From a candidate division BRC1 bacterium HGW-BRC1-1 (GTDB lineage: Bacteria > Sumerlaeota > Sumerlaeia > Sumerlaeales > Sumerlaeaceae): a stretch of 52,148 nucleotides of DNA. Below are positions 12,192-45,414 of this stretch, piece after piece (position 1 is the stretch's first letter; each line of letters opens with the position of its first letter). The notes under the pieces were generated by a model. That model searched no databases and was not told the DNA's origin. It saw only the letters and a program-made list of their open reading frames with translations. Location: NCBI GenBank assembly GCA_002842095.1, contig PHCB01000016.1:1-52148 (forward strand). The letters are read 5' to 3'. A program made the translations under genes and the position numbers.

Positions 12192-15100
12192 ATGAAGTCT
12201 TTTCGCAGTATTCTTTCGCTTATCGCCTGTGCGCTGTTAGCGCTCGGTGCCAGCCAGTCCGCCCACGCGGCAAACACCGTGTCGGCATCCGTCGCAACGC
12301 CCCTGCCCACCGGGCCGGGACAGACATTCGGGGTGTCGCTGGACATCAGTACGGATTCGCCGACCCAGCATGTCAGCGGCTTCTATTTAAAAGTGTATTA
12401 CGATGACACCCAGGTGACGTTAACGGGCTGTTCCAATAACACGGGTGAGGCGTCAACTGGTTACTTCTTAGACGCACCTATCCCAAGTCCTCAGATTGCA
12501 GGCTTAAACGCCTTCAAATATATTTTGATGTCCACGCTGCATGATTTGATTGGCCCGGGACCGATCGGGCAGGTGAACTTCACGACTCGGCCGGGTTTCA
12601 CGGGAACCGTGCGCATAGCGGTTCTGCCGGGTGACGAACCTGACTCAGAAGAAGGGCTGACCGATGAAATCTTCCATGTGATCCCGGTGACTTACAGCAT
12701 CCCTGATCCGCTTTTCGATGGCCCGGCCAATGTCTATGTTTACAAGGGCTGGGCGGGGGCGACCGCAGGGGACAGTGTAATAACACCCGCGCCCGACAGC
12801 ATCACCGCTGTTTATGGCGTGAACGCCTTCGACACAGTGCAGGGCGGCGTGAACGCGGTAGACGCGGGCGCCAAGGTGATGGTTTATGACGGCGGGTTTG
12901 AAGCCGAGGCAGTGACGATTGCCAAGTCGCTGATCTTCGAGGGCCGCGCACCGGCACCCCCATCGCCAACTGTTAGTTCCATCGACCTCGATGCCGGCGC
13001 TGTTGTTACCGACTCAATCGGCGTAACCGCCGACACGGTGAACGTGAACGCAAACAACGTGCTCATCGCCGACGGTATCCTGGTGGCGAAAAACGATCCT
13101 CTGAACCGCGCAACTGTGACCATCGCCGATGACGTTTATGCCCAGTCCAACGTGGTCGTGGACAAGGCCATCATCTTGGCCGGTCAGAGCCGAGCAGGAG
13201 CGATCATCGTCCCGGCGGCAGAGGACGGCAATAAGGATAACGCTTTCGCCGACAGTGCTCAGAATGGTATTATTATCAAGTCCAGTGATGTGATGATCAA
13301 AAACCTGACTCTCAACGGGCAGGGGAATCCTGGTCTGACACCCGGCAAGAACAACTTCCGCATCGGCATCGTTTCAGCTGATGCAAGCTATCCGGGTGGC
13401 GGCACCTGGAACAACCTGCATGTGGATGGCGTTGATGTCCGTCATCCCTATCGTCGAGGAATTTCAGTGTGGCCTCCCGCAGTCTCGGGCACTCTGATCG
13501 AGAACTCGTTGATTGACGATGTCAGGTTCAATCAAGGAATGGCTGTGGCGGGACAAGGCGAGATTCTCAATAACACGATCAACCACGCTTTCCAGGGTAT
13601 TGTGTTGGGTCCGGACCCCACAACCCCCGCTGGTATCTGCAAGGTGAATGGTAACACGCTGACAGACATCGGAAACTCGGCGGGATGCTGGGGCTATCCG
13701 AACGGCCAACCAAGAGGCATCCAGTTCAACAATAGCGATTCAGTTGGACGCGAAGTCGAGATTAAGAACAACACCATCTCTGACAATGGTCTCGAGCAGT
13801 ACAGTGGCGCGGTTGGAATCTACACTCGTCTCCCCAACTCGGATTCAGTCGTCGAGGGCAACAATATCACGCTCTCTTCGGGTGTTTCATGGGCCGAACC
13901 TGGAAGCCAGGCGGTTGGCATGCTGCTGGGATGGTCTTACGCCAAAGGTTTCTTGGCTAAGAACAATCAGATTAACATGACCAAGTACGGTATCGGCGTG
14001 ATGGTGCACGGAAGCGGCAGCACGGCCAATCCGCTTGTGCTGGAAGGCAACACAATCACGAGTACCCTAAGTGCGGCGCTCGAAACAGGCGACGGTACCG
14101 GTATCTACATTGCCAACGAGTACCTGTTTGCCCCGACCGACAGAAGTCTATCTCATGTGATACTCCAGAACAACAACGTCATCAGTGGATTCGTGAGGGG
14201 CGTCGCGATCGAAAAGCTCCCGGCAGCATCCCAAGCGCTTACGCTGATAGCTGACGGTAATAGCATCTCCGGTAACTCCGGTGCGGGTATTGCATCCGTG
14301 GGATCCGGATCCGGCGTCATCACGCTCAGCGCAACAAACAACACCATCAACGGCAACGCCACCGGCCTCTCCGCTTCCGGAGCGGCACTGGCAACCGTTA
14401 CTGGCAACACGATGTACGGCAACCCGGTGCAGTTTGCATTCGATTCCGGCGTCGGCACGGCTGCGACGGTCAACACCTTCGCGATGGCAGACCGCCTGCC
14501 TGCAGACCTGGAGTTGATCATCGACGCCAACACGCTGACGGGCAAGGTTTACATCGGCGAGGGGTCGCCTTTCACGCTCGTTCGCGCTGAGAGCGGTTAC
14601 CTAAACGTCCGCAATAGGATCCAGCCGTCGGCGACAGCTGCCACGGAAGGCGACACGGTGCGCTGCCCCGGTGATGCGGTGGCAGCACGGGTGACTTACC
14701 CGGAGCAGGTCTCGGCGAACAAGGCCCTGACCTTCCTCGGCGAGCCGGGCGACACGACCGTCGCCGGCCCTGCAGCCACGGCTCCTATTGTCGACGGACA
14801 AAATGTCGCTGGCAACGGGTTCTCCATGGTCAGCGCGGCAGACGATGTCGCGGTGCGCGGGTTCTTTGTGCGCAACCATGCCTCGGGCGGCGACAACGCA
14901 ACCGGTGCAGGAGTCTGGACTTCGACCGACAGCGACCGTATCACGGTCGCCGACTGCGATATCCAGGCATGTGCCAACGGGGCGGTCTTCGGCTGGGTGG
15001 ACTCATCCACCACGCTTGACGGCTGGAACATCGCCTACAACACGATCAATGTCCCGACCACTAGTATTAACGGGGCAATTGACCTCACGAACATGATCAA

Positions 15101-18100
15101 CACCACGATCAACCATAATACAGTGGTTGGCGGAATCAGTAACTTGACCCTTGCTTCGGACTCCAACTCAGCTGGTCCCACTGGCTTGGGATCCGTTGTC
15201 AGCGACAACTCCTTGAGTGGGGCCCCGTTTGGAAAGAACGCCGTATCACTTTCGTCGTTCAATCTGCAACCACTGATGGGAGTCGTCATCAAGTCGAACA
15301 ATATCACGCCTCCGGCGAGTGGATATGGAGTGTACATCTCCCCGAACAATGCAACCTTCCCGATTTCCGACATAACCATCGGCGGAACTGGGCCGGGTGA
15401 TGGCAACATAATCAGCGGGTCGTGTAATACGGCGGTTTATGGTTATGGCGGATACGGCCCCCTGTCGAATCTGACCGTCTCCGGCAACACCATCGCCATT
15501 ACCAATTCGAACTCGCTTGCCAGTGCCGTCAATTTCTACAACGTCGCCGGCTCGTCCATTATGGAAGCAAACACGATCAGCAAATCTGGCTCCTCGGTCG
15601 GGGCGTGGTATGGTGTGCAAGTCTCAAGAAACGGGACAGGCGCCATACAGATTCACCGCAATACCATTAACGGTGGCTCTTCCGCCGGGACAAGCGGCGC
15701 TGGCTTATACCTGGCCAACACTCTCACCGCAAGCGCCAGCATCACCGCCACGGAGAACATTATCACCGGGTTCCTTGGCACCAGCGGACGCGCGGTCCGA
15801 ACTCAGGCTCTTGTCAACAGTTCCGTCCTCACCCTCCATGGGAATGATCTGTCCGGAAACACCAGGTCCGTGCAAAATGGCGGCTCGGCGGTCCTCGATG
15901 CCTCATCGAACTGGCATGGCACAAACACCGAGGCGGGTGTCCAAGGTCAGGTCCTCACGCTGGTGGATTACACCCCCTGGCTGGATGTGGCGACCGACAC
16001 CGATGCGGTGACGGCCGGCTTCCAGGGCGACTTCAGCTACCTGCATGTGGCAGCGGCCAGCCCGCAGACCGGCGCGATCGGCCGCATCCAGGAGGGCGTG
16101 GATCTCTTGGCAGACGGCGCGTTGACGGGAAATGCCAGGACGGCCTACCTTCACAACGGCACGTTTGTGGAGTCCAACTGCACGATCGGCCGGGCCTGCA
16201 CGGTGCAGGGCGAGTCGCGCGCGGGTGTGGTTATTGCTCCGGCGGCGGAAGACTCAAAGGAAGATTCTGCATACGGCGGGTCGTCTCAGAGCGGCCTGAT
16301 CCTTTCCTCCGGCGACATCACGGTGCTAGACCTCACCGTGGATGGTGAGGCGAACAACACTGCCTTGGGCCGCCCAGCGGACGAGAACAACTTTCGCAGC
16401 GGCATCATCGACTTTGCGCCCGCCATCCACAACAACCTCCAGATCCGCAACTGCGTCGTGAAGGGTATTGTGCGGCGCGGAATCCAGCTCGGCACATGGG
16501 TCCGGACGCTCCCCAGCCTTTCTACAGGGCACCTGGTGCAGGATTGCGTCATCAGCGACGTCATGTACCGGCACGGCATCGCCATGTCGGCGGACGGTGT
16601 CATCCGCCACAACGAAGTCAGCAATATTAACCAAACCAGCAGCTTCGTCGGAAGCGCGATCTATTTCGAAGGCGACAACATGACCGTCGAGAACAATACG
16701 GTTACCGACTTCGGCCTTGGTGGCATCTGGTTCGCGCCCAACTACGGGGCTGCAGACGTGCTCTCAATCCGCGGCAACTCTGTGTCGCAACCGAAGAGCA
16801 GCCTCACGTTGTGCGGCCTCTACCTGCCGGGCCTCGACTCGCCGAGTGTCATCGGCGGACCGAGCCCGTTGGATCGCAACACCATCGACATGCGCGGTGG
16901 AGATGCGTTGGTGGACGAGCGCATCGGCGTCCTCCTCACTTGGGTAGGCACCGGCGTGGTGTTCGAGAACAACCTTGTACGGACGGAAGGCATCGGCACG
17001 GGCCTAATGAGCTACATTGCGGCCAGCGCTAGCAACCGCCCTGTCCTTCGCAATAACCAGTTTGTCGCCGACCTCGGCATAGCTGGTTCTCGGCCTGAAT
17101 TCGGGTCGGGCATCCTTGTGACCGACGACGGCGAGTACATAAATGGGCCGGGTTCCAGCGGTGCCACTTACCTCACATTGGAGAACAACGAGGTCACGGG
17201 CTTTGCCCGCGGCATCGATGTTCTCAACTCGGGTGCAAGCGCAGCCCGTCCGGCGGTCGCTATGATCGGCGGTTTGGACTCGACCTTTTCGAATGAGATC
17301 GTAAACTGCGAGACGGGCGTGCTGGTCCATGGTCAGTTCGCCAACGCGACCATCCCAAACAACTCGGTCTATGACAACGAAACCGGTATCGGTCTGGCAG
17401 CTAGCGCAACGGCTACCATCGAGTCGAATGACTTCGACGATGCGGCGGACAACCTGACCGACATCCGGCTGGACGCGGATGCGGGCCTGGCTACCTTCGC
17501 AGGCACGACTGCACTCGCGGGCGACACCTATTTGGTGGACAACCGCGCGGCACAGGCGATTGACGCCACTGGCTTCACCTTCGATGTGACGGGCGACTTC
17601 AACATTGAAGACCATATGTTCCACGCGCTGGATGCCTCGGCTTCCGGTCTCATCACATGGGTTGCGAACAATGTGTTCGTGACCGACCCGGCACGCAACG
17701 CACCGGGCGTACTTGCTTCGACGGACTCGGTTGTCCAGCGCGGCGTGGACGCATCGGCGGCGGGCTTCACGGTTAATGTGGAAGCTGGCAGCTACGCACA
17801 GAGCGCCACGGTTGACAAGGCCGTGACGGTCGTAGGCGCGCTGGCTGGTGTGGATGCACGCACGCGGTCGGGCGCTGAGAGCACGCTGACCGGTGGGTTC
17901 TCGGTGACGGTTGACGACGTGACGCTTGACGGCCTCAAGGTGGCGGGTGCCGCGAACGCGGTGACCGTTGCCGGCGGCTTGACGGGCGTGACGGCGAAGA
18001 ACATTTCCATCGACACCGTGTCCGGTAACGGTATCTACGCCGGTGCGGCGGGCAACCTGTCCGAGCTTATTGCTGACAAGAACCTGGTCGTCGGCGTGGG

Positions 18101-19133
18101 CGGCGTGGGTATTGGCGGTTATCTGGCCAACTCGATCGTAACGAACAACCTCGTCAGTTCCAGCACGGTGGAGGACGCCACAGGCATCGGCGGGCAGTTT
18201 GCGGTAGCAACCATCGAAGGCAATGAGGTCGACTCGATCACAAGCGGATCGGCGTTTGCTCTGCTGTACGATCAGAGCACCGGCACCCTGGTGCAGCTCA
18301 ACCGTTTCAACCACTCTGCACATGGTGTGTATGTTGACGCGGCAGCCCCACCCGACCCAAGCGTGTTACTGACGCGCAACCACATCAGCGAGGAAGTAGC
18401 TGGCGGATTCGGTGCAGCAAACATAACTGCCAGCACCCTGACGGCTAACGGTAACTGGTGGGGCCATGTATTCGGCCCGCTGGCGACCGCAGCCTCGCCG
18501 CTCAACAACGCCACAGGCCGCGGAACGGAAGTGACCGGCGCGGTTGCCTTCGACCCGTGGTACATCGAGCGTGACCTCGCATTGACTACACAGGCACTGC
18601 GTGCACTGAATGACCGCGATGGCGACGGCATCTGGGATGCGGACGAGGACGACAACCTTAATAATGTCTTGGATGCGGGTGAGACCGATCGTGCGGTGAA
18701 AGACACCGACGGCGACGGCGTGGAAGACGGCGTGGAACGTGTTGCAGGGACGGACCCGCGCAACAACCTGAGTGTTCCCGCTGGCTTGGATTCTGACGGT
18801 GACGGCCTACCGGCGAGCATAGACCCGAACGACGGATTGGCTGACACCGACGGCGACAGATTCCTGGACGGCTATGAGTACAGTCATGGAACCGACCCGT
18901 CGATCGCGGCGAGCAAGCCGGCGTTAGGTGATGTTAACAACGACGGGGACATCACAATCTTCGATGTCTCGCGTCTGACCCAGGTGCTTGTGGCATCACG
19001 GCCTGTCACCGATGGCACAATGTACCTGGACTATGCCGACATGAACCGCAACGGCAATGTGAGCAACGCCGACGCGACCATCCTGCGCCGCTTCGTCGGC
19101 GGACCCACTCTCCAGCCGACGCTCCCGTTCTAA
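12192..19133 (+). CDS. Giant secreted beta-helix protein with N-terminal cohesin-like and C-terminal dockerin domains
   Basis: 2313 residues with a signal peptide (1-26, cleaved after SAHA). Residues 27-172 resemble a cohesin: a GPGQTFGVSLDIS strand, the VSGFYLKVYYDDTQV motif and a GPIGQVNFTTRPGF edge. Residues 180-2130 are right-handed beta-helix repeats with many N-N-x-I/V turns, in about four modules that each begin with a pattern like VNAVDAGAKVMVYDGGF. Residues 2140-2235 hold DxDGDG calcium-binding repeats. Residues 2246-2305 form a type I dockerin with two calcium loops (DVNNDGDITIFD and DMNRNGNVSNAD). No catalytic site is visible. GGGAGG lies 8 bases before the ATG. The protein is probably extracellular; carrying both a cohesin and a dockerin, it could bind itself or the two small cohesin-like proteins encoded next. 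Confidence 0.85.
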   Translation: MKSFRSILSLIACALLALGASQSAHAANTVSASVATPLPTGPGQTFGVSLDISTDSPTQHVSGFYLKVYYDDTQVTLTGCSNNTGEASTGYFLDAPIPSPQIAGLNAFKYILMSTLHDLIGPGPIGQVNFTTRPGFTGTVRIAVLPGDEPDSEEGLTDEIFHVIPVTYSIPDPLFDGPANVYVYKGWAGATAGDSVITPAPDSITAVYGVNAFDTVQGGVNAVDAGAKVMVYDGGFEAEAVTIAKSLIFEGRAPAPPSPTVSSIDLDAGAVVTDSIGVTADTVNVNANNVLIADGILVAKNDPLNRATVTIADDVYAQSNVVVDKAIILAGQSRAGAIIVPAAEDGNKDNAFADSAQNGIIIKSSDVMIKNLTLNGQGNPGLTPGKNNFRIGIVSADASYPGGGTWNNLHVDGVDVRHPYRRGISVWPPAVSGTLIENSLIDDVRFNQGMAVAGQGEILNNTINHAFQGIVLGPDPTTPAGICKVNGNTLTDIGNSAGCWGYPNGQPRGIQFNNSDSVGREVEIKNNTISDNGLEQYSGAVGIYTRLPNSDSVVEGNNITLSSGVSWAEPGSQAVGMLLGWSYAKGFLAKNNQINMTKYGIGVMVHGSGSTANPLVLEGNTITSTLSAALETGDGTGIYIANEYLFAPTDRSLSHVILQNNNVISGFVRGVAIEKLPAASQALTLIADGNSISGNSGAGIASVGSGSGVITLSATNNTINGNATGLSASGAALATVTGNTMYGNPVQFAFDSGVGTAATVNTFAMADRLPADLELIIDANTLTGKVYIGEGSPFTLVRAESGYLNVRNRIQPSATAATEGDTVRCPGDAVAARVTYPEQVSANKALTFLGEPGDTTVAGPAATAPIVDGQNVAGNGFSMVSAADDVAVRGFFVRNHASGGDNATGAGVWTSTDSDRITVADCDIQACANGAVFGWVDSSTTLDGWNIAYNTINVPTTSINGAIDLTNMINTTINHNTVVGGISNLTLASDSNSAGPTGLGSVVSDNSLSGAPFGKNAVSLSSFNLQPLMGVVIKSNNITPPASGYGVYISPNNATFPISDITIGGTGPGDGNIISGSCNTAVYGYGGYGPLSNLTVSGNTIAITNSNSLASAVNFYNVAGSSIMEANTISKSGSSVGAWYGVQVSRNGTGAIQIHRNTINGGSSAGTSGAGLYLANTLTASASITATENIITGFLGTSGRAVRTQALVNSSVLTLHGNDLSGNTRSVQNGGSAVLDASSNWHGTNTEAGVQGQVLTLVDYTPWLDVATDTDAVTAGFQGDFSYLHVAAASPQTGAIGRIQEGVDLLADGALTGNARTAYLHNGTFVESNCTIGRACTVQGESRAGVVIAPAAEDSKEDSAYGGSSQSGLILSSGDITVLDLTVDGEANNTALGRPADENNFRSGIIDFAPAIHNNLQIRNCVVKGIVRRGIQLGTWVRTLPSLSTGHLVQDCVISDVMYRHGIAMSADGVIRHNEVSNINQTSSFVGSAIYFEGDNMTVENNTVTDFGLGGIWFAPNYGAADVLSIRGNSVSQPKSSLTLCGLYLPGLDSPSVIGGPSPLDRNTIDMRGGDALVDERIGVLLTWVGTGVVFENNLVRTEGIGTGLMSYIAASASNRPVLRNNQFVADLGIAGSRPEFGSGILVTDDGEYINGPGSSGATYLTLENNEVTGFARGIDVLNSGASAARPAVAMIGGLDSTFSNEIVNCETGVLVHGQFANATIPNNSVYDNETGIGLAASATATIESNDFDDAADNLTDIRLDADAGLATFAGTTALAGDTYLVDNRAAQAIDATGFTFDVTGDFNIEDHMFHALDASASGLITWVANNVFVTDPARNAPGVLASTDSVVQRGVDASAAGFTVNVEAGSYAQSATVDKAVTVVGALAGVDARTRSGAESTLTGGFSVTVDDVTLDGLKVAGAANAVTVAGGLTGVTAKNISIDTVSGNGIYAGAAGNLSELIADKNLVVGVGGVGIGGYLANSIVTNNLVSSSTVEDATGIGGQFAVATIEGNEVDSITSGSAFALLYDQSTGTLVQLNRFNHSAHGVYVDAAAPPDPSVLLTRNHISEEVAGGFGAANITASTLTANGNWWGHVFGPLATAASPLNNATGRGTEVTGAVAFDPWYIERDLALTTQALRALNDRDGDGIWDADEDDNLNNVLDAGETDRAVKDTDGDGVEDGVERVAGTDPRNNLSVPAGLDSDGDGLPASIDPNDGLADTDGDRFLDGYEYSHGTDPSIAASKPALGDVNNDGDITIFDVSRLTQVLVASRPVTDGTMYLDYADMNRNGNVSNADATILRRFVGGPTLQPTLPF

Positions 19134-19148
19134 GCAACAACCACATCC

Positions 19149-19183
19149 CCCGCTGGGGCGGCCCAACACGCCGCTCCAGCGGG
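19149..19183 (+). other. Strong hairpin between the dockerin gene and the next cohesin-like gene
   Basis: Arms of 14 bases (19149-19162 and 19170-19183; CCCGCTGG...CCAGCGGG with one G-U pair) enclose a 7-base loop, 15 bases after the stop codon. The T tract is weak, so it may be a partial terminator or a 3'-end stabiliser that lowers or separates expression of the downstream genes. Confidence 0.65.
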
Positions 19184-19239
19184 ACAAGTTTCAATCCAAC
19201 TAACCAACCACACACACATGAACCAAGAGGAGAGAACCC

Positions 19240-19752
19240 ATGAAGAATCTCAGCAAGGCTCTGGCTATCGCCACCATTCTATGCGCCAGTGCCTCAATGT
19301 CACAGACCACCACCAACACCATCGTCGGCAAGTTCGGTAAAGCGCCCGGCGGCGCCAATTTCACCGTCCTGCTGGAGAACAAGGGACCCGCCCAGACCGT
19401 GTCAGGCTTCGCTTTCAAAATCGGCTACGATCCGGCCCAGGTATCACTCGACACCGTAGCCAACAGCACGGGGCAGGCGGCGAGCAGCGTACAGTACACC
19501 ATCGGCCCGGTTAAAGACACCGAGGTTCCGCAGGGTGCCAAGGCATATCGCATCCTCACCATGACAACAATGAAGAACCTTGAGAAAGCGTCCTCGCTGG
19601 TGGAACTCAAGTTCACCAAGAAGAGTGACGGGCCGTTTATGGTTGTGGTCGATGACCGTGAGAAGGATCCTGTGGACGGAGTGCAGGACGCTTCATTCGA
19701 GAACATTCCCCACGAGTTCGACCTTTCGGCAGTCGCCGGGGCGGCTCTCTGA
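19240..19752 (+). CDS. Small secreted cohesin-like domain protein (first)
   Basis: 170 residues: a signal peptide (MKNLSKALAIATILCASASMS) and then essentially one beta-sandwich domain. It shows cohesin family traits: PGGANFTVLLENKGPAQTVSGF, the FKIGYDPAQVSLD strand and the SSLVELKFTKKSDGPF strand near the end. There is no membrane anchor or dockerin. GAGGAG lies 7 bases upstream of the ATG. It follows the beta-helix/dockerin gene by 106 bases and is very likely part of the same transcription unit, separated by a hairpin. A free cohesin-like module could occupy or bridge dockerins of the large protein. Cohesin versus a related PEP-CTERM-type beta-sandwich cannot be settled by eye. Confidence 0.75.
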   Translation: MKNLSKALAIATILCASASMSQTTTNTIVGKFGKAPGGANFTVLLENKGPAQTVSGFAFKIGYDPAQVSLDTVANSTGQAASSVQYTIGPVKDTEVPQGAKAYRILTMTTMKNLEKASSLVELKFTKKSDGPFMVVVDDREKDPVDGVQDASFENIPHEFDLSAVAGAAL

Positions 19753-19794
19753 GCCGAAGCGTTGGTTTGCAGACCCGGATTTGTGAGATTGGCG

Positions 19795-19834
19795 CGCCGG
19801 GGGTTGTCCTCCGAACTGGGGGGAATCCCCGGCG
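19795..19834 (+). terminator. Terminator-like hairpin after the first small cohesin-like gene
   Basis: CGCCGGGG (19795-19802) pairs with CCCCGGCG (19827-19834), followed by the T-rich TAATTGTTTTG. It may terminate transcription partially before the next gene, which begins 57 bases later. Confidence 0.5.
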
Positions 19835-19891
19835 TAATTGTTTTGAAACGGATGACGGCCTGATCGGCCGACTATGAGAAGGAGCGTTATG

Positions 19892-20515
19892 ATGTCGAAG
19901 TCATTGGCAGCAAATTTGGGACTGTGGAAGATCGGATGCATGTCCATTGTGGTGGGATGCATTCTTGCGCCGGGCGCCGGGCGGGCGCACGCGGCACCAA
20001 CCTATGTGCTGAGGCCTGACTTTGTTACCACACCCACGGCGGCGAATGAATCGTTTTCAGTCATCCTGAAGCTCGATGGACCCGCCGAGCAGATGGAAGC
20101 TTACAGCCTGTACTTCTACTATAATAGTGCCGTATACACGATCAACAGCGCGATAAACAACACGAATTCGCCGTATGCTAATGTTGGTCTGGACGGTACA
20201 GTAGACGACTCCGCAAATGACGACGGCGATACCAGCACGGACAAGATAGCGATCATCCAGGCGGCCGAATCGGGCCTGACGGGGTGGAGCGTGCCGGGCA
20301 ACGTGGCACTATTGAACTGCACCACCAGCGCAACCTTTACTCCAATAGACCGGATTCTCATCACCGTACGGGACAATCCGGGAAACGGTTTCTATGCGAC
20401 CGATGGCAAACAATATCTTAACGACGCCGTGAGCCCACTTCCGCCCAGCGTGGATGGCACCTGGACGCAAACCTACTTCCTGCCGGTCGGGTTGAGTTCG
20501 TTCTCTATCGAGTGA
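19892..20515 (+). CDS. Small secreted cohesin-like domain protein (second)
   Basis: 207 residues with a signal peptide (long positively charged start, hydrophobic core MSIVVGCILAPGAG, cleavage near AHA-A). One beta-rich domain follows, with features shared with the two preceding cohesin-like domains: a NESFSVILKLDGPAEQMEAYSLYFYYN strand pair (in part), a gain of Asp-rich loops (DDSANDDGDTSTDK) and FTPIDRILITVRDNPG. AGGAG lies 7 bases before the ATG at 19892; ATGs at 19889 and 19874 are also in frame. It has no anchor. The stop codon is 12 bases from repeat element copy 2. It is the most divergent of the three cohesin-like proteins, so the assignment is weaker. Confidence 0.65.
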   Translation: MSKSLAANLGLWKIGCMSIVVGCILAPGAGRAHAAPTYVLRPDFVTTPTAANESFSVILKLDGPAEQMEAYSLYFYYNSAVYTINSAINNTNSPYANVGLDGTVDDSANDDGDTSTDKIAIIQAAESGLTGWSVPGNVALLNCTTSATFTPIDRILITVRDNPGNGFYATDGKQYLNDAVSPLPPSVDGTWTQTYFLPVGLSSFSIE

Positions 20516-41736: not shown

Positions 41737-44700
41737 ATGTCCACCCCTGACCCCAAATATACCTCAAACCGTCACAAGGACGGTGCTCCCGATTCAGAGG
41801 AAACCATCGGTTCCTTTCATGAATCGGATAACGATCCTATCGTCCCGGATGTGGACGAAACCATGTCGGGGTTTCCGGGGGGTGTGACTCCTGATTTAGC
41901 ACTGCGGTCGGCGCTTGGCTTGGAGACGCATCCGGGCGTTTTCGTCGTTCACGAGATGGGCGAAAAAAGCCCCGAAGAACAGTACCCTCACATGCATGGT
42001 GCCCCTGCTTTCACTTTGTTGCGGCGCGTCGGTAGTGGTGGCATGGGGGAAGTCTGGGAAGCGATTCAATCGTCCCTCCGACGGCGCGTGGCTATCAAGC
42101 GATTGCGCCGAGACCTTACTGTCGACGTCCACCGGGCGAAGGAAGCCGATGCTCTTTCCCGGATGTTCTTTCAAGAAGCGCTGACGACCGCCAATCTTCA
42201 GCACCCGAATATCGTTCCGGTGCATGATCTTGGCATCGATGAAAAAGGGAACCCGTTACTCACGATGAAACTCGTGCGCGGAGTTCCCTGGACAGATCAG
42301 ATTCTGGCCGATGCTGAATTGCCGCCGGCCGAATACTTTTCCAAGCATCTCGGAATTTTGATCGATGTGGCACAAGCCATTGCCTACGCCCACTCAAAGG
42401 GCATCATCCATCGCGACCTGAAACCCTCTCAGGTCATGATCGGCGAGTTCGGCGAAGTTATGGTGATGGATTGGGGGCTGGCCGCTCCCTTTAATCTGCC
42501 GAAGGATGCGACGCCAGAAATTGAAGGAATCGGTCTTGGTTCACTTTTTGGTCGGGCCTCGTCCCCTTCCGGAACGCCCTCTTACATGGCGCCCGAGCAG
42601 ACGTTGACAGATCCCGATTCCCTCGGACCCTGGACAGATGTTTTTCTGCTGGGCGGCATCCTCTATTTCCTGCTGACGCGAACTGCTCCTTATTCTGAAT
42701 CGGATCGTTCGCAGGCCTTCCAACAGGCGAAGGGTGGCGAGATCGAGCCACCGGAATTTCGAGCGCCCGAGGCACAAATCCCGTCGAAACTATCCTCTCT
42801 GGCAATGGCCGCCATGGCCCGAGAACCCGCGGATCGCGTTCCCACCGTTCGGGTATTTATTGATGAACTGAATGCTTATCTTTCAGGTGCGGACAAGCGT
42901 CGTGAATCTTTGCAAATTGTTCAGGAAGTCGAGGAGCGCTATCAGGCGGCCCCGTCGTCTTATGGTGTCTTGTCGGACTGCCTCGTTTCCCTCGCACGGG
43001 CGCGAGGTTTGTGGCATGAAAACCCGCGAATTCAGGAATTGCACAATCAATTGGTGGAGTCCTATGCCAATGCGGCATTGCTGAATAATGATCTGACCCT
43101 TGCGCGCTCGCTGGCCGAGCAATCTTCTTCGATAGAAGATAGCCGTGTTTTGCTGAATCTGGTTGAGCTGGCTCAGGAAAAAAATCAACGCACTGCCCGC
43201 GAACGCCGACTGGCCATACGTCTCGCCGTTATCACCATGCTTCTGCTCGTTTTCGGTGGAATGAAATATGCCCGAGACCAGAATTGGGCACGTGAAAAAG
43301 CGGAACAGGCCAGAGAGGCGGCCACCCTTCAGCGAGACGCGGCGGAGAAGGAACAATACTTTTATGGCATCCGGTTTGCGGATATTTACTTGTGGGAAGG
43401 AAGACTGGCCCAAGCTGTGTCTGTAATGCTCGACGGTGTTCCAGTTCGTTTGCGGGATTGGGAATGGGGAATTCTGATGGCCCGTTATGCGTCTGATGAC
43501 ATGATTCTCACCAAGGCGAATCCTCTACAAGAGATTTATCATGCGAGTTTTTCTCCGGATGGGAATCGTATTGTTCTTGGTCATCGGGGTGGCCTTATCT
43601 CCCTTTGGGATGCGAATACGGGAGCCCGCATACTCAGACGCGAATTGAATAACAGGGGAATCTGGACAGCCCGATTCAGCCCGGATGGAAGTAAAATTCT
43701 GGCGGGCTCCACCAGTGGCATGGCAAACATTCTGGATGCATCAACGCTGGATGTTCTGACCACGTTGACCGGCCATATTTTCTCCGCTCCTGTGATGCGG
43801 GGAGCAGCGTTTTCTCCGACAGGGGATCGGGTCATCTCAACCGGTAACGATGGTTTTGCACGGTTGTGGGACGTCAAAACAGGCGCTTCAATTTGGGCGG
43901 AAAGATTGCCCAAGGCGACATATAGCGCCGAGTTTTCTCCTGATGGTAACACCGTGGCAGTGGCCATGGTTGGGGCAGCGCAGGTTCAACTTCTCGATGC
44001 CACTTCCGGCTCATTGATTCGGACCTTTCAAGGCCATACGAAATCGGTCTATGGCGTGTGTTTTGGTCCGGATGGAACACGACTTGCCACGGCATCCACC
44101 GACCAGAAGGCTCGTATTTTCAATGTGGTCACGGGAGGACTTCTCTTTGAAATACCCCACCCGAAAACCTATCCGAACAACCTTGCCTTCAGCCCTGACG
44201 GAAAACTTCTCGCAACGGCCGGTGAGGACGGGACATGCAGGGTCTGGGATTCGTCCACTGGTGCCCTGGTGGAGCAGTTGTACGGCGGCGCGGAAATGCA
44301 GAGGGTGGAATTCTCACCTGATGGCCAGCGAATCATTACGACATCGCTGGGGGAAGTAAAGGTTTGGAACATCAGAAATATGCTTCAGCCCGCTTCAGCT
44401 GTTGCTAAAGAAGATGTGCCTGCTACCGCGACCCTGGAGGTTCTCCGGACTGTAGGCTTCCCTTATGACCGCAAGGGCTCATGGGCCGGTAATGACGAAG
44501 CATGGTTGGCACCGGCAGGAAGAAGTTTTTATAAATCCCAAAACCGTTGGGTCGCGGTGGATTCTTACTACTCTGTCTATAGCGCCGATAATAAACAACG
44601 TTTAGACATCGCTTTCAACGGTTCCAAGGTTACGGCATGGGACAATGAAACATCGCAAGTCCTCGCTGAACTTGCACCCAATGGTGGGTTCAATGCTGCG

Positions 44701-45414
44701 TTCAGCCGTGATGGACATCTGGCGGCCACGGCCTCTCAGAGAGGAGAGTTGGTCGTTTGGGATACGAGGGATTGGAAGTCAATTGGGAAGGGAATGCAGG
44801 GAGCGGATAAGACGGCTCTGTGGAGTTTAGACTTCAGTCCGGATGCAAAGTACATCGCCCTCGGATGGCTGAACGGCGATTTGTCATTATGGGATGTGGA
44901 CGAACAACGCATCGTCTATAATATCAAGGCTCACATCCCCATGAGGCCCGTGGTCACTGTGAGATTTTCACCTGATGGTAAACGTATCCTGACCAGTTCG
45001 TCCGACACGACCGCTAAGATTTTTAAAGCTGATTCAGGGCGTCTTCTTATGACGTTGTCGGGACATGATAAATTTTTGGTGGGGGCCGAATTCAGCAGAG
45101 ACGGCAGACTGGTGTTGACAGCTGGCAGCGATGGGAAGGTTAAGCTCTGGGAAGCTTCCTCGGGACGGGAACTTATGACGTTAAGATCCGAAGGCCCCGA
45201 TCGAATGATCATGGGTGCACACTTCACTGCAGATGGGCTGGGCGTTATAGCCGTTACTTCCAGAAACACGATTTCGCAAATTGAAGTGTTTCCGTGGGAA
45301 CTTTCGGATTACCCTGGTTCCTCCGATATTCCCTTCGAAAAACGTCTCGAATTATACAAACGCCGTGTGAGGATGAACCCGAAGGCGCAGTTTTCGGACA
45401 TCGTTTGGGAATGA
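41737..45414 (+). CDS. Transmembrane Ser/Thr protein kinase with WD40 repeat domain
   Basis: 1225 residues. After an N-terminal acidic region, the kinase domain spans about 92-370: Gly loop VGSGGMGEVW (98-107), VAIK with K121, Glu147, catalytic loop HRDLKPSQ (225-232), DWGLA (245-249) and the APEQ box. At position 232 a Gln replaces the Asn that normally coordinates magnesium. A single membrane segment lies near 493-510, followed by a coiled coil (AREKAEQAREAATLQRDAAEKEQ in part). About 13 WD40-like units follow (FSPDG...LWD patterns; about 7 to residue 890 and 6 after), making two probable beta-propellers outside the kinase. No Shine-Dalgarno sequence is visible before the ATG. The domain layout is common in planctomycete-like bacteria; ligand and targets are unknown. 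Confidence 0.9.
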   Translation: MSTPDPKYTSNRHKDGAPDSEETIGSFHESDNDPIVPDVDETMSGFPGGVTPDLALRSALGLETHPGVFVVHEMGEKSPEEQYPHMHGAPAFTLLRRVGSGGMGEVWEAIQSSLRRRVAIKRLRRDLTVDVHRAKEADALSRMFFQEALTTANLQHPNIVPVHDLGIDEKGNPLLTMKLVRGVPWTDQILADAELPPAEYFSKHLGILIDVAQAIAYAHSKGIIHRDLKPSQVMIGEFGEVMVMDWGLAAPFNLPKDATPEIEGIGLGSLFGRASSPSGTPSYMAPEQTLTDPDSLGPWTDVFLLGGILYFLLTRTAPYSESDRSQAFQQAKGGEIEPPEFRAPEAQIPSKLSSLAMAAMAREPADRVPTVRVFIDELNAYLSGADKRRESLQIVQEVEERYQAAPSSYGVLSDCLVSLARARGLWHENPRIQELHNQLVESYANAALLNNDLTLARSLAEQSSSIEDSRVLLNLVELAQEKNQRTARERRLAIRLAVITMLLLVFGGMKYARDQNWAREKAEQAREAATLQRDAAEKEQYFYGIRFADIYLWEGRLAQAVSVMLDGVPVRLRDWEWGILMARYASDDMILTKANPLQEIYHASFSPDGNRIVLGHRGGLISLWDANTGARILRRELNNRGIWTARFSPDGSKILAGSTSGMANILDASTLDVLTTLTGHIFSAPVMRGAAFSPTGDRVISTGNDGFARLWDVKTGASIWAERLPKATYSAEFSPDGNTVAVAMVGAAQVQLLDATSGSLIRTFQGHTKSVYGVCFGPDGTRLATASTDQKARIFNVVTGGLLFEIPHPKTYPNNLAFSPDGKLLATAGEDGTCRVWDSSTGALVEQLYGGAEMQRVEFSPDGQRIITTSLGEVKVWNIRNMLQPASAVAKEDVPATATLEVLRTVGFPYDRKGSWAGNDEAWLAPAGRSFYKSQNRWVAVDSYYSVYSADNKQRLDIAFNGSKVTAWDNETSQVLAELAPNGGFNAAFSRDGHLAATASQRGELVVWDTRDWKSIGKGMQGADKTALWSLDFSPDAKYIALGWLNGDLSLWDVDEQRIVYNIKAHIPMRPVVTVRFSPDGKRILTSSSDTTAKIFKADSGRLLMTLSGHDKFLVGAEFSRDGRLVLTAGSDGKVKLWEASSGRELMTLRSEGPDRMIMGAHFTADGLGVIAVTSRNTISQIEVFPWELSDYPGSSDIPFEKRLELYKRRVRMNPKAQFSDIVWE

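Follow-up and report, generated by a model that had tools for sequence, protein, structure and literature searches.

The cohesin-dockerin pair ranks with the strongest protein fasteners in nature. In the clostridial cellulosome, a CipA-type scaffoldin is matched with type I dockerins that are borne by enzymes. Non-cellulosomal cohesin-dockerin genes have been described in Archaeoglobus fulgidus (Bayer 1999, as cited in PMC9012536), and for dockerin/cohesin proteins of ANME archaea and their sulfate-reducing partners, a role in the matrix of the consortium has been suggested (PMC9012536, PMC10553843). Paenibacillus guangzhouensis has 28 monovalent adaptor scaffoldins, each with a single cohesin-dockerin pair (PMC11557425). 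In the locus described here, the question of what cohesins and dockerins do outside cellulosomes comes down to a single dockerin and three cohesins within the same gene cluster. The host belongs to the candidate phylum Sumerlaeota, which is uncultivated and frequently encountered in biofilms; neither module is mentioned in the Sumerlaeota papers that were searched, and a literature search for dockerins in the phylum found none.

The window, i.e. the whole stretch of DNA that was analyzed, is one entire contig (C22; 52,148 nucleotides) of a 3.77-Mb genome (G000) that is about 95% complete. Three open reading frames, located exactly where a preliminary description of this DNA had placed them, form a cluster spanning 8.3 kb (Table 1). 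The ATG of the first, P0001, is preceded on its 5' side by a ribosome-binding site, GGGGAGGA. P0002 and P0003 each consist of a signal peptide and one domain of the kind found at the N-terminus of P0001. The P0001 signal peptide was assigned from its sequence pattern, which shows a positively charged n-region, a hydrophobic core and a cleavage site at AHA; the secretion proposed earlier for all three proteins holds at this level of evidence. Elsewhere in the window (41737-45414), a 1225-residue protein joins a protein kinase to long WD40-repeat arrays.

Table 1. Positions of the cluster genes, their domains and the intergenic hairpins in the window
Feature	Positions	Strand	Evidence
P0001, 2313 aa, secreted: signal peptide, cohesin-like domain, beta-helix rods, TSP3 stalk, dockerin	12192..19133	+	open frame, ribosome-binding site, Pfam and NCBIfam matches
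P0001 signal peptide, aa 1-26, MKSFRSILSLIACALLALGASQSAHA	12192..12269	+	sequence pattern
P0001 N-terminal cohesin-like domain	12276..12698	+	relatives' profile, E 1.9e-9; A4 profile (rows include this domain); AlphaFold2 model
P0001 right-handed beta-helix region	12732..18596	+	NosD-family match, E 5.6e-11 (NCBIfam), partial
P0001 TSP3 repeat stalk, calcium-type, aa 2138-2240	18603..18911	+	TSP3_bac, E 6.3e-5, 2 stretches, just under cut-off
P0001 C-terminal type I dockerin	18924..19097	+	PF00404; PDB dockerins
RNA hairpin in the P0001-P0002 gap, 14 pairs, no T-run	19149..19183	+	-32.6 kcal/mol, z -6.3
P0002, 170 aa, secreted, single cohesin-like domain	19240..19752	+	PF00963, 20.7 bits (below cut-off); relatives' profile, E 1.3e-10
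GC-rich RNA hairpin in the P0002-P0003 gap	19794..19834	+	fold of 19753-19860: -47.7 kcal/mol, z -2.9
P0003, 213 aa, secreted, single cohesin-like domain, tail PVGLSSFSIE	19874..20515	+	BLASTP, profile, AlphaFold2 model

Most of P0001 is a beta-helix of about 1950 residues, rich in asparagine and glycine. It was divided into blocks at aa 181-860, 861-1270, 1271-1790 and 1791-2135, the first and third of which are homologous duplicates (E = 9.5e-38); further repeats are present besides. No enzyme family in Pfam matched this region, and no catalytic domain was recognized in any of the cluster proteins, as the preliminary description had also concluded. A cohesin-like match inside the beta-helix (aa about 1990-2054, E = 5e-5 to 9e-5) was judged to be a chance match to beta repeats and was set aside.

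The C-terminus of P0001 was identified as a dockerin by Dockerin_1 (PF00404), which matched aa 2245-2301 at E = 2.9e-9 (37.4 bits, compared to a cut-off of 22.9) and, in the genome-wide search, at E = 4.0e-11 (45.3 bits). The crystallized dockerins 4fl4, 2ccl and 1ohz align to the same stretch. Both calcium loops of this two-loop module, claimed earlier from the translation, are complete: D2247-V-N-N-D-G-D-I-T-I-F-D2258 (18930-18965) and D2283-M-N-R-N-G-N-V-S-N-A-D2294 (19038-19073). As read from the translation, they fit the F-hand pattern D-x-N-x-D/N-G-x-I/V-x-x-x-D. The only other dockerin match in the genome is a 19-residue partial one (E = 0.02), located elsewhere. Could this be a partial cellulosome on which polysaccharide-degrading enzymes dock? 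The dockerin belongs to type I, its nearest PDB counterparts being those of clostridial enzymes, and lyases may have a beta-helix fold; however, the sole full dockerin sits on a beta-helix protein with no enzyme-family match, and no multi-cohesin scaffold was found in the genome, in which the subfamily is represented by three single domains. This reading is highly improbable. A cellulosome proper was rejected, there being neither a multi-cohesin scaffoldin nor a dockerin on polysaccharide-degrading enzymes in the genome, and the earlier statement that the locus is not a cellulosome is upheld. Because roughly 5% of the genome is absent from the assembly, a further dockerin or scaffold may exist.

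Whether the other three domains are cohesins was less readily settled by Pfam. Cohesin (PF00963) did not match the P0001 N-terminus or P0003, and its score for P0002 lies under the 24.1-bit cut-off. Searching the PDB sequences with P0002 and with the P0001 N-terminus (phmmer) gave no match, no relatives were found when GTDB contigs were scanned with P0002 alone, and an alignment of the three sequences (A1) was too narrow as a query, with matches in 2 of 61 genomes. The three domains are paralogues of one another (BLASTP E-values of 1e-13, 2e-7 and 4e-5, with 2e-7 for P0003 against the P0001 N-terminus). Relatives were gathered by searching whole genomes, and a profile was built, with the window sequences excluded, from tandem repeats of giant proteins in other genomes; it retrieved P0002 and the P0001 N-terminus (E-values in Table 1) and, in the next round, P0003 (E = 4.8e-4). 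One such giant, L056, matches PF00963 above its cut-off (7.7e-15).

Structure prediction gave a concordant picture. The P0001 N-terminal domain, a beta-sandwich of 140 residues, was modeled with AlphaFold2 at a pLDDT of 71 and a pTM of 0.68; the best 21 Foldseek matches to this model were all cohesins (E down to 5.7e-5), and its VIA Z-score to 2vo8 was 11.0. The best 24 VIA matches of the P0003 model, which is of lower confidence (pLDDT 61), were likewise all cohesins (Z up to 10.4). Both models were calculated from an alignment containing the relatives' repeats. P0003 is the weakest of the three members of this fold. We conclude from profiles and models that the three domains have a predicted cohesin fold and are a divergent subfamily that lies under the Pfam cut-off. 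The earlier assignment of all three as cohesin-like stands with respect to profile and, for the P0001 N-terminus and P0003, model; in Pfam, none of them reaches the cut-off. The window domains are 14-28% identical to their relatives; in the tree, the three group as a separate clade (95/95) with long branches, most likely the product of local duplications.

In other Sumerlaeia, relatives of the subfamily are repeated in tandem, with 5-9 copies in a giant scaffold protein; the closest named relatives of the scaffold repeats are from the same-class genomes G026 and G036. The gene neighborhood recurs. In G013, G033 and G036, a TSP3-dockerin protein is followed by a small secreted cohesin and a giant with 5-9 cohesins; G019 has two dockerin genes, then a small cohesin and a giant with six; and in G037 a small cohesin precedes a dockerin gene and a giant with six. 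The contig of G026 ends beside a small cohesin and a nine-cohesin giant. In relatives, the proteins carrying P0001-type dockerins include beta-helix, GSDH, PA-domain and LamG/cadherin-like proteins, not cellulases. A cohesin and a dockerin share one chain in L070 (469 aa), L057 (658 aa), and L108 and L103 (476 aa).

Several other features of the relatives' loci were observed. At L057 2275-5426 (in G013), a 658-residue protein, whose dockerin and TSP3-like region are combined with three cohesins in another all-in-one layout, adjoins a 384-residue cohesin-like protein. Small secreted cohesin-like proteins of the relatives share a C-terminal tail, roughly S-V-D/A-D/E-W-x-x-L (L056 8955-9533, L062 108-977, L060 8504-9325, L061 4724-5362, L057 2275-3426), possibly a sorting or interaction tag, which is absent from P0002 and P0003. 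P0003 (20482-20512 of the window) and the small cohesin of G019 (L103 8155-8844) end within PVxLSxFSxE; in L057 (2275-3426), a similar stretch runs on into a further domain. Cohesin-dockerin-cohesin triplets with short linkers, mostly at the protein C-terminus, were found at L064, L065, L066, L067, L073 and L075, that is, in six of the fetched genomes, in the phylum plus one genome outside it.

Co-occurrence was assessed in 39 genomes of the class. P0002-type cohesins are present in G000, G011, G013, G019, G026, G033, G036 and G037, and P0001-type TSP3-dockerins in exactly the same genomes when counted at E = 1e-6, a line that was set post hoc at a gap (the next genome is at 1.3e-4): eight genomes have both and 31 have neither (Fisher p = 1.6e-8). 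When stratified by family, p was 1.2e-4, or 9.5e-4 with the window genome left out. Looser dockerin lines gave unstratified values of 7e-7 (E = 0.001) and, more weakly, 1e-4 (E = 0.01). Generic PF00404 and PF00963 matches were not associated in the class genomes (p = 0.83). Physical linkage alone could make both subfamilies travel together; in G011 and G013, many P0001-type dockerin genes lie elsewhere in the genome. The co-occurrence and the recurrent clustering with scaffold genes lend good indirect support to the idea that the subfamily cohesins and the P0001-type dockerin are partners. Across Sumerlaeia, this co-occurrence points to a matrix-building system whose giants have as many as nine cohesins and whose dockerin-bearing proteins are other than cellulases.

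These results bear directly on a reading in which no pairing takes place, the domains being a lineage-specific beta-sandwich with another role (e.g. carbohydrate or surface binding) and the dockerin a leftover or a calcium clasp. Of the same-family genomes, 6/7 have cohesin-like proteins with no detectable dockerin. Since such proteins occur in dockerin-less relatives, having a cohesin fold does not in itself establish that a domain binds dockerins. The position of the subfamily below the Pfam cut-off and the resemblance among cohesin, CBM and integrin-like sandwiches in fold searches also speak for this reading. However, both subfamilies co-occur exactly and cluster across several families, the dockerin loops are complete, and the relatives' tandem repeats do exceed the Pfam cohesin cut-off. 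We regard an absence of pairing as unlikely.

The reading toward which we lean, with fair but limited confidence, is that the cluster encodes a small, self-contained, non-cellulosomal cohesin-dockerin assembly set whose dockerin docks onto the cluster's own cohesins and which builds an extracellular layer of rods. Since both the cohesin and dockerin halves are present without cellulose-degrading enzymes, the set probably joins rod proteins outside the cell. Subfamily cohesins number exactly three in G000, all of them in this cluster, and docking within the set of one dockerin and three cohesins is likely. After secretion, the P0001 dockerin would dock, with calcium, onto these cohesins. If the N-terminal cohesin of another P0001 were engaged, chains would form; binding to P0002 or P0003 would end a chain or link the rod to something else. 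The outcome would be an adhesive or matrix layer of beta-helix rods outside the cell. The set is probably a cut-down version, lacking the scaffold, of a Sumerlaeia system whose TSP3-dockerin proteins would dock onto the giants with 5-9 cohesins.

A more specific proposal, put forward in the preliminary description with the small proteins as caps or adaptors, is that P0001 forms a head-to-tail polymer, the dockerin of each copy binding the N-terminal cohesin of the next in a calcium-dependent fiber, with P0002 and P0003 as caps or branch points. Such a fiber is a plausible realization, one of those possible, of the assembly set favored above, but as a claim in its own right we hold it only tentatively. 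The chain that bears the genome's one full dockerin also bears a cohesin of the subfamily; with no second full dockerin in the assembly, this N-terminal cohesin is left without an alternative dockerin partner. The rod-like beta-helices would hold the two ends apart, and the end-to-end layout recurs in L070. In adaptor scaffoldins, though, the cohesin and dockerin of one chain usually differ in specificity, so that same-chain pairing is normally avoided; the relatives instead appear to dock onto multi-cohesin giants, and the missing part of the genome may hold additional partners.

Alternatively, P0001 may be a monovalent cargo that is displayed through P0002, P0003 or cohesins encoded on contig C33, its N-terminal cohesin either having lost dockerin binding or serving the dockerin of a partner species. 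P0002 and P0003 are free secreted cohesins, and C33 encodes two proteins of about 520 residues (L078 8643-10253, L079 8101-9720), each with at most two cohesin-like domains, whose cohesin domains score above the Pfam cut-off. A precedent for partner species exists in ANME-2c and Seep-SRB2, both of which express cohesin/dockerin proteins (PMC10553843). Against cargo docking, no membrane or wall anchor was recognized on P0002 or P0003, and proteins of the C33 type are widespread in the class, including genomes in which no dockerin is detectable. This arrangement is possible rather than probable.

The two intergenic regions of the cluster encode RNA hairpins (Table 1); a terminator-like scan match (19816-19832) lies inside the second, and hairpins of this kind are common near such clusters. 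They are possible attenuators or mRNA stabilizers. In Clostridium, stem-loops are reported to set the dose of cellulosome subunits (PMC4423207, PMC8219983). By analogy, the two window hairpins may resemble such dose-setting elements. The promoter scan gave 7 matches compared to 3.8 +/- 2.2 in shuffled sequence and the terminator scan 9 compared to 9.3; neither is clearly above expectation, and hence no promoter or operon is claimed. That the cluster makes a one-component, calcium-switched fiber in which a single rod protein polymerizes through its own two modules, the free single-cohesin proteins terminate chains and the hairpins set their dose is a doubtful elaboration of the assembly set.

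In having cohesin and dockerin modules without a cellulosome, G000 falls on the non-cellulosomal side of the known systems, and it can be compared with each of them. Like A. fulgidus, whose cohesin and dockerin genes are adjacent, it combines a very small set of these modules with the lack of a cellulosome, and the A. fulgidus cohesin 2xdh matched the P0001 and P0003 models with VIA Z-scores of 8.2 and 8.6, respectively. Unlike that system, the window has beta-helix rods and a TSP3 stalk between the modules as well as two free single-cohesin proteins, and its relatives have giants with 5-9 cohesins. The ANME proteins are similar in being non-cellulolytic, in carrying cohesin and dockerin on one chain and in their proposed role in extracellular adhesion, but they combine as many as five cohesins with a dockerin, and what they dock are solute-binding proteins or S-layer domains, whereas the window has one rod protein and single cohesins. 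The P. guangzhouensis scaffoldins share the arrangement of one cohesin and one dockerin per polypeptide; they differ in often being fused to glycoside hydrolases and in being accompanied by SLH anchoring scaffoldins, neither of which was found in the window system. With the clostridial cellulosome, the window shares a type I dockerin and the cohesin fold, but its genome set comprises neither dockerin-bearing enzymes nor a scaffoldin, and no cellulose-binding module was seen in the three proteins. What is new here is the phylum, the rod between the modules, the minimal set lacking a scaffold and the co-occurrence at the level of subfamilies. The cluster is a stripped-down relative of these known systems, not a new kind of machine.
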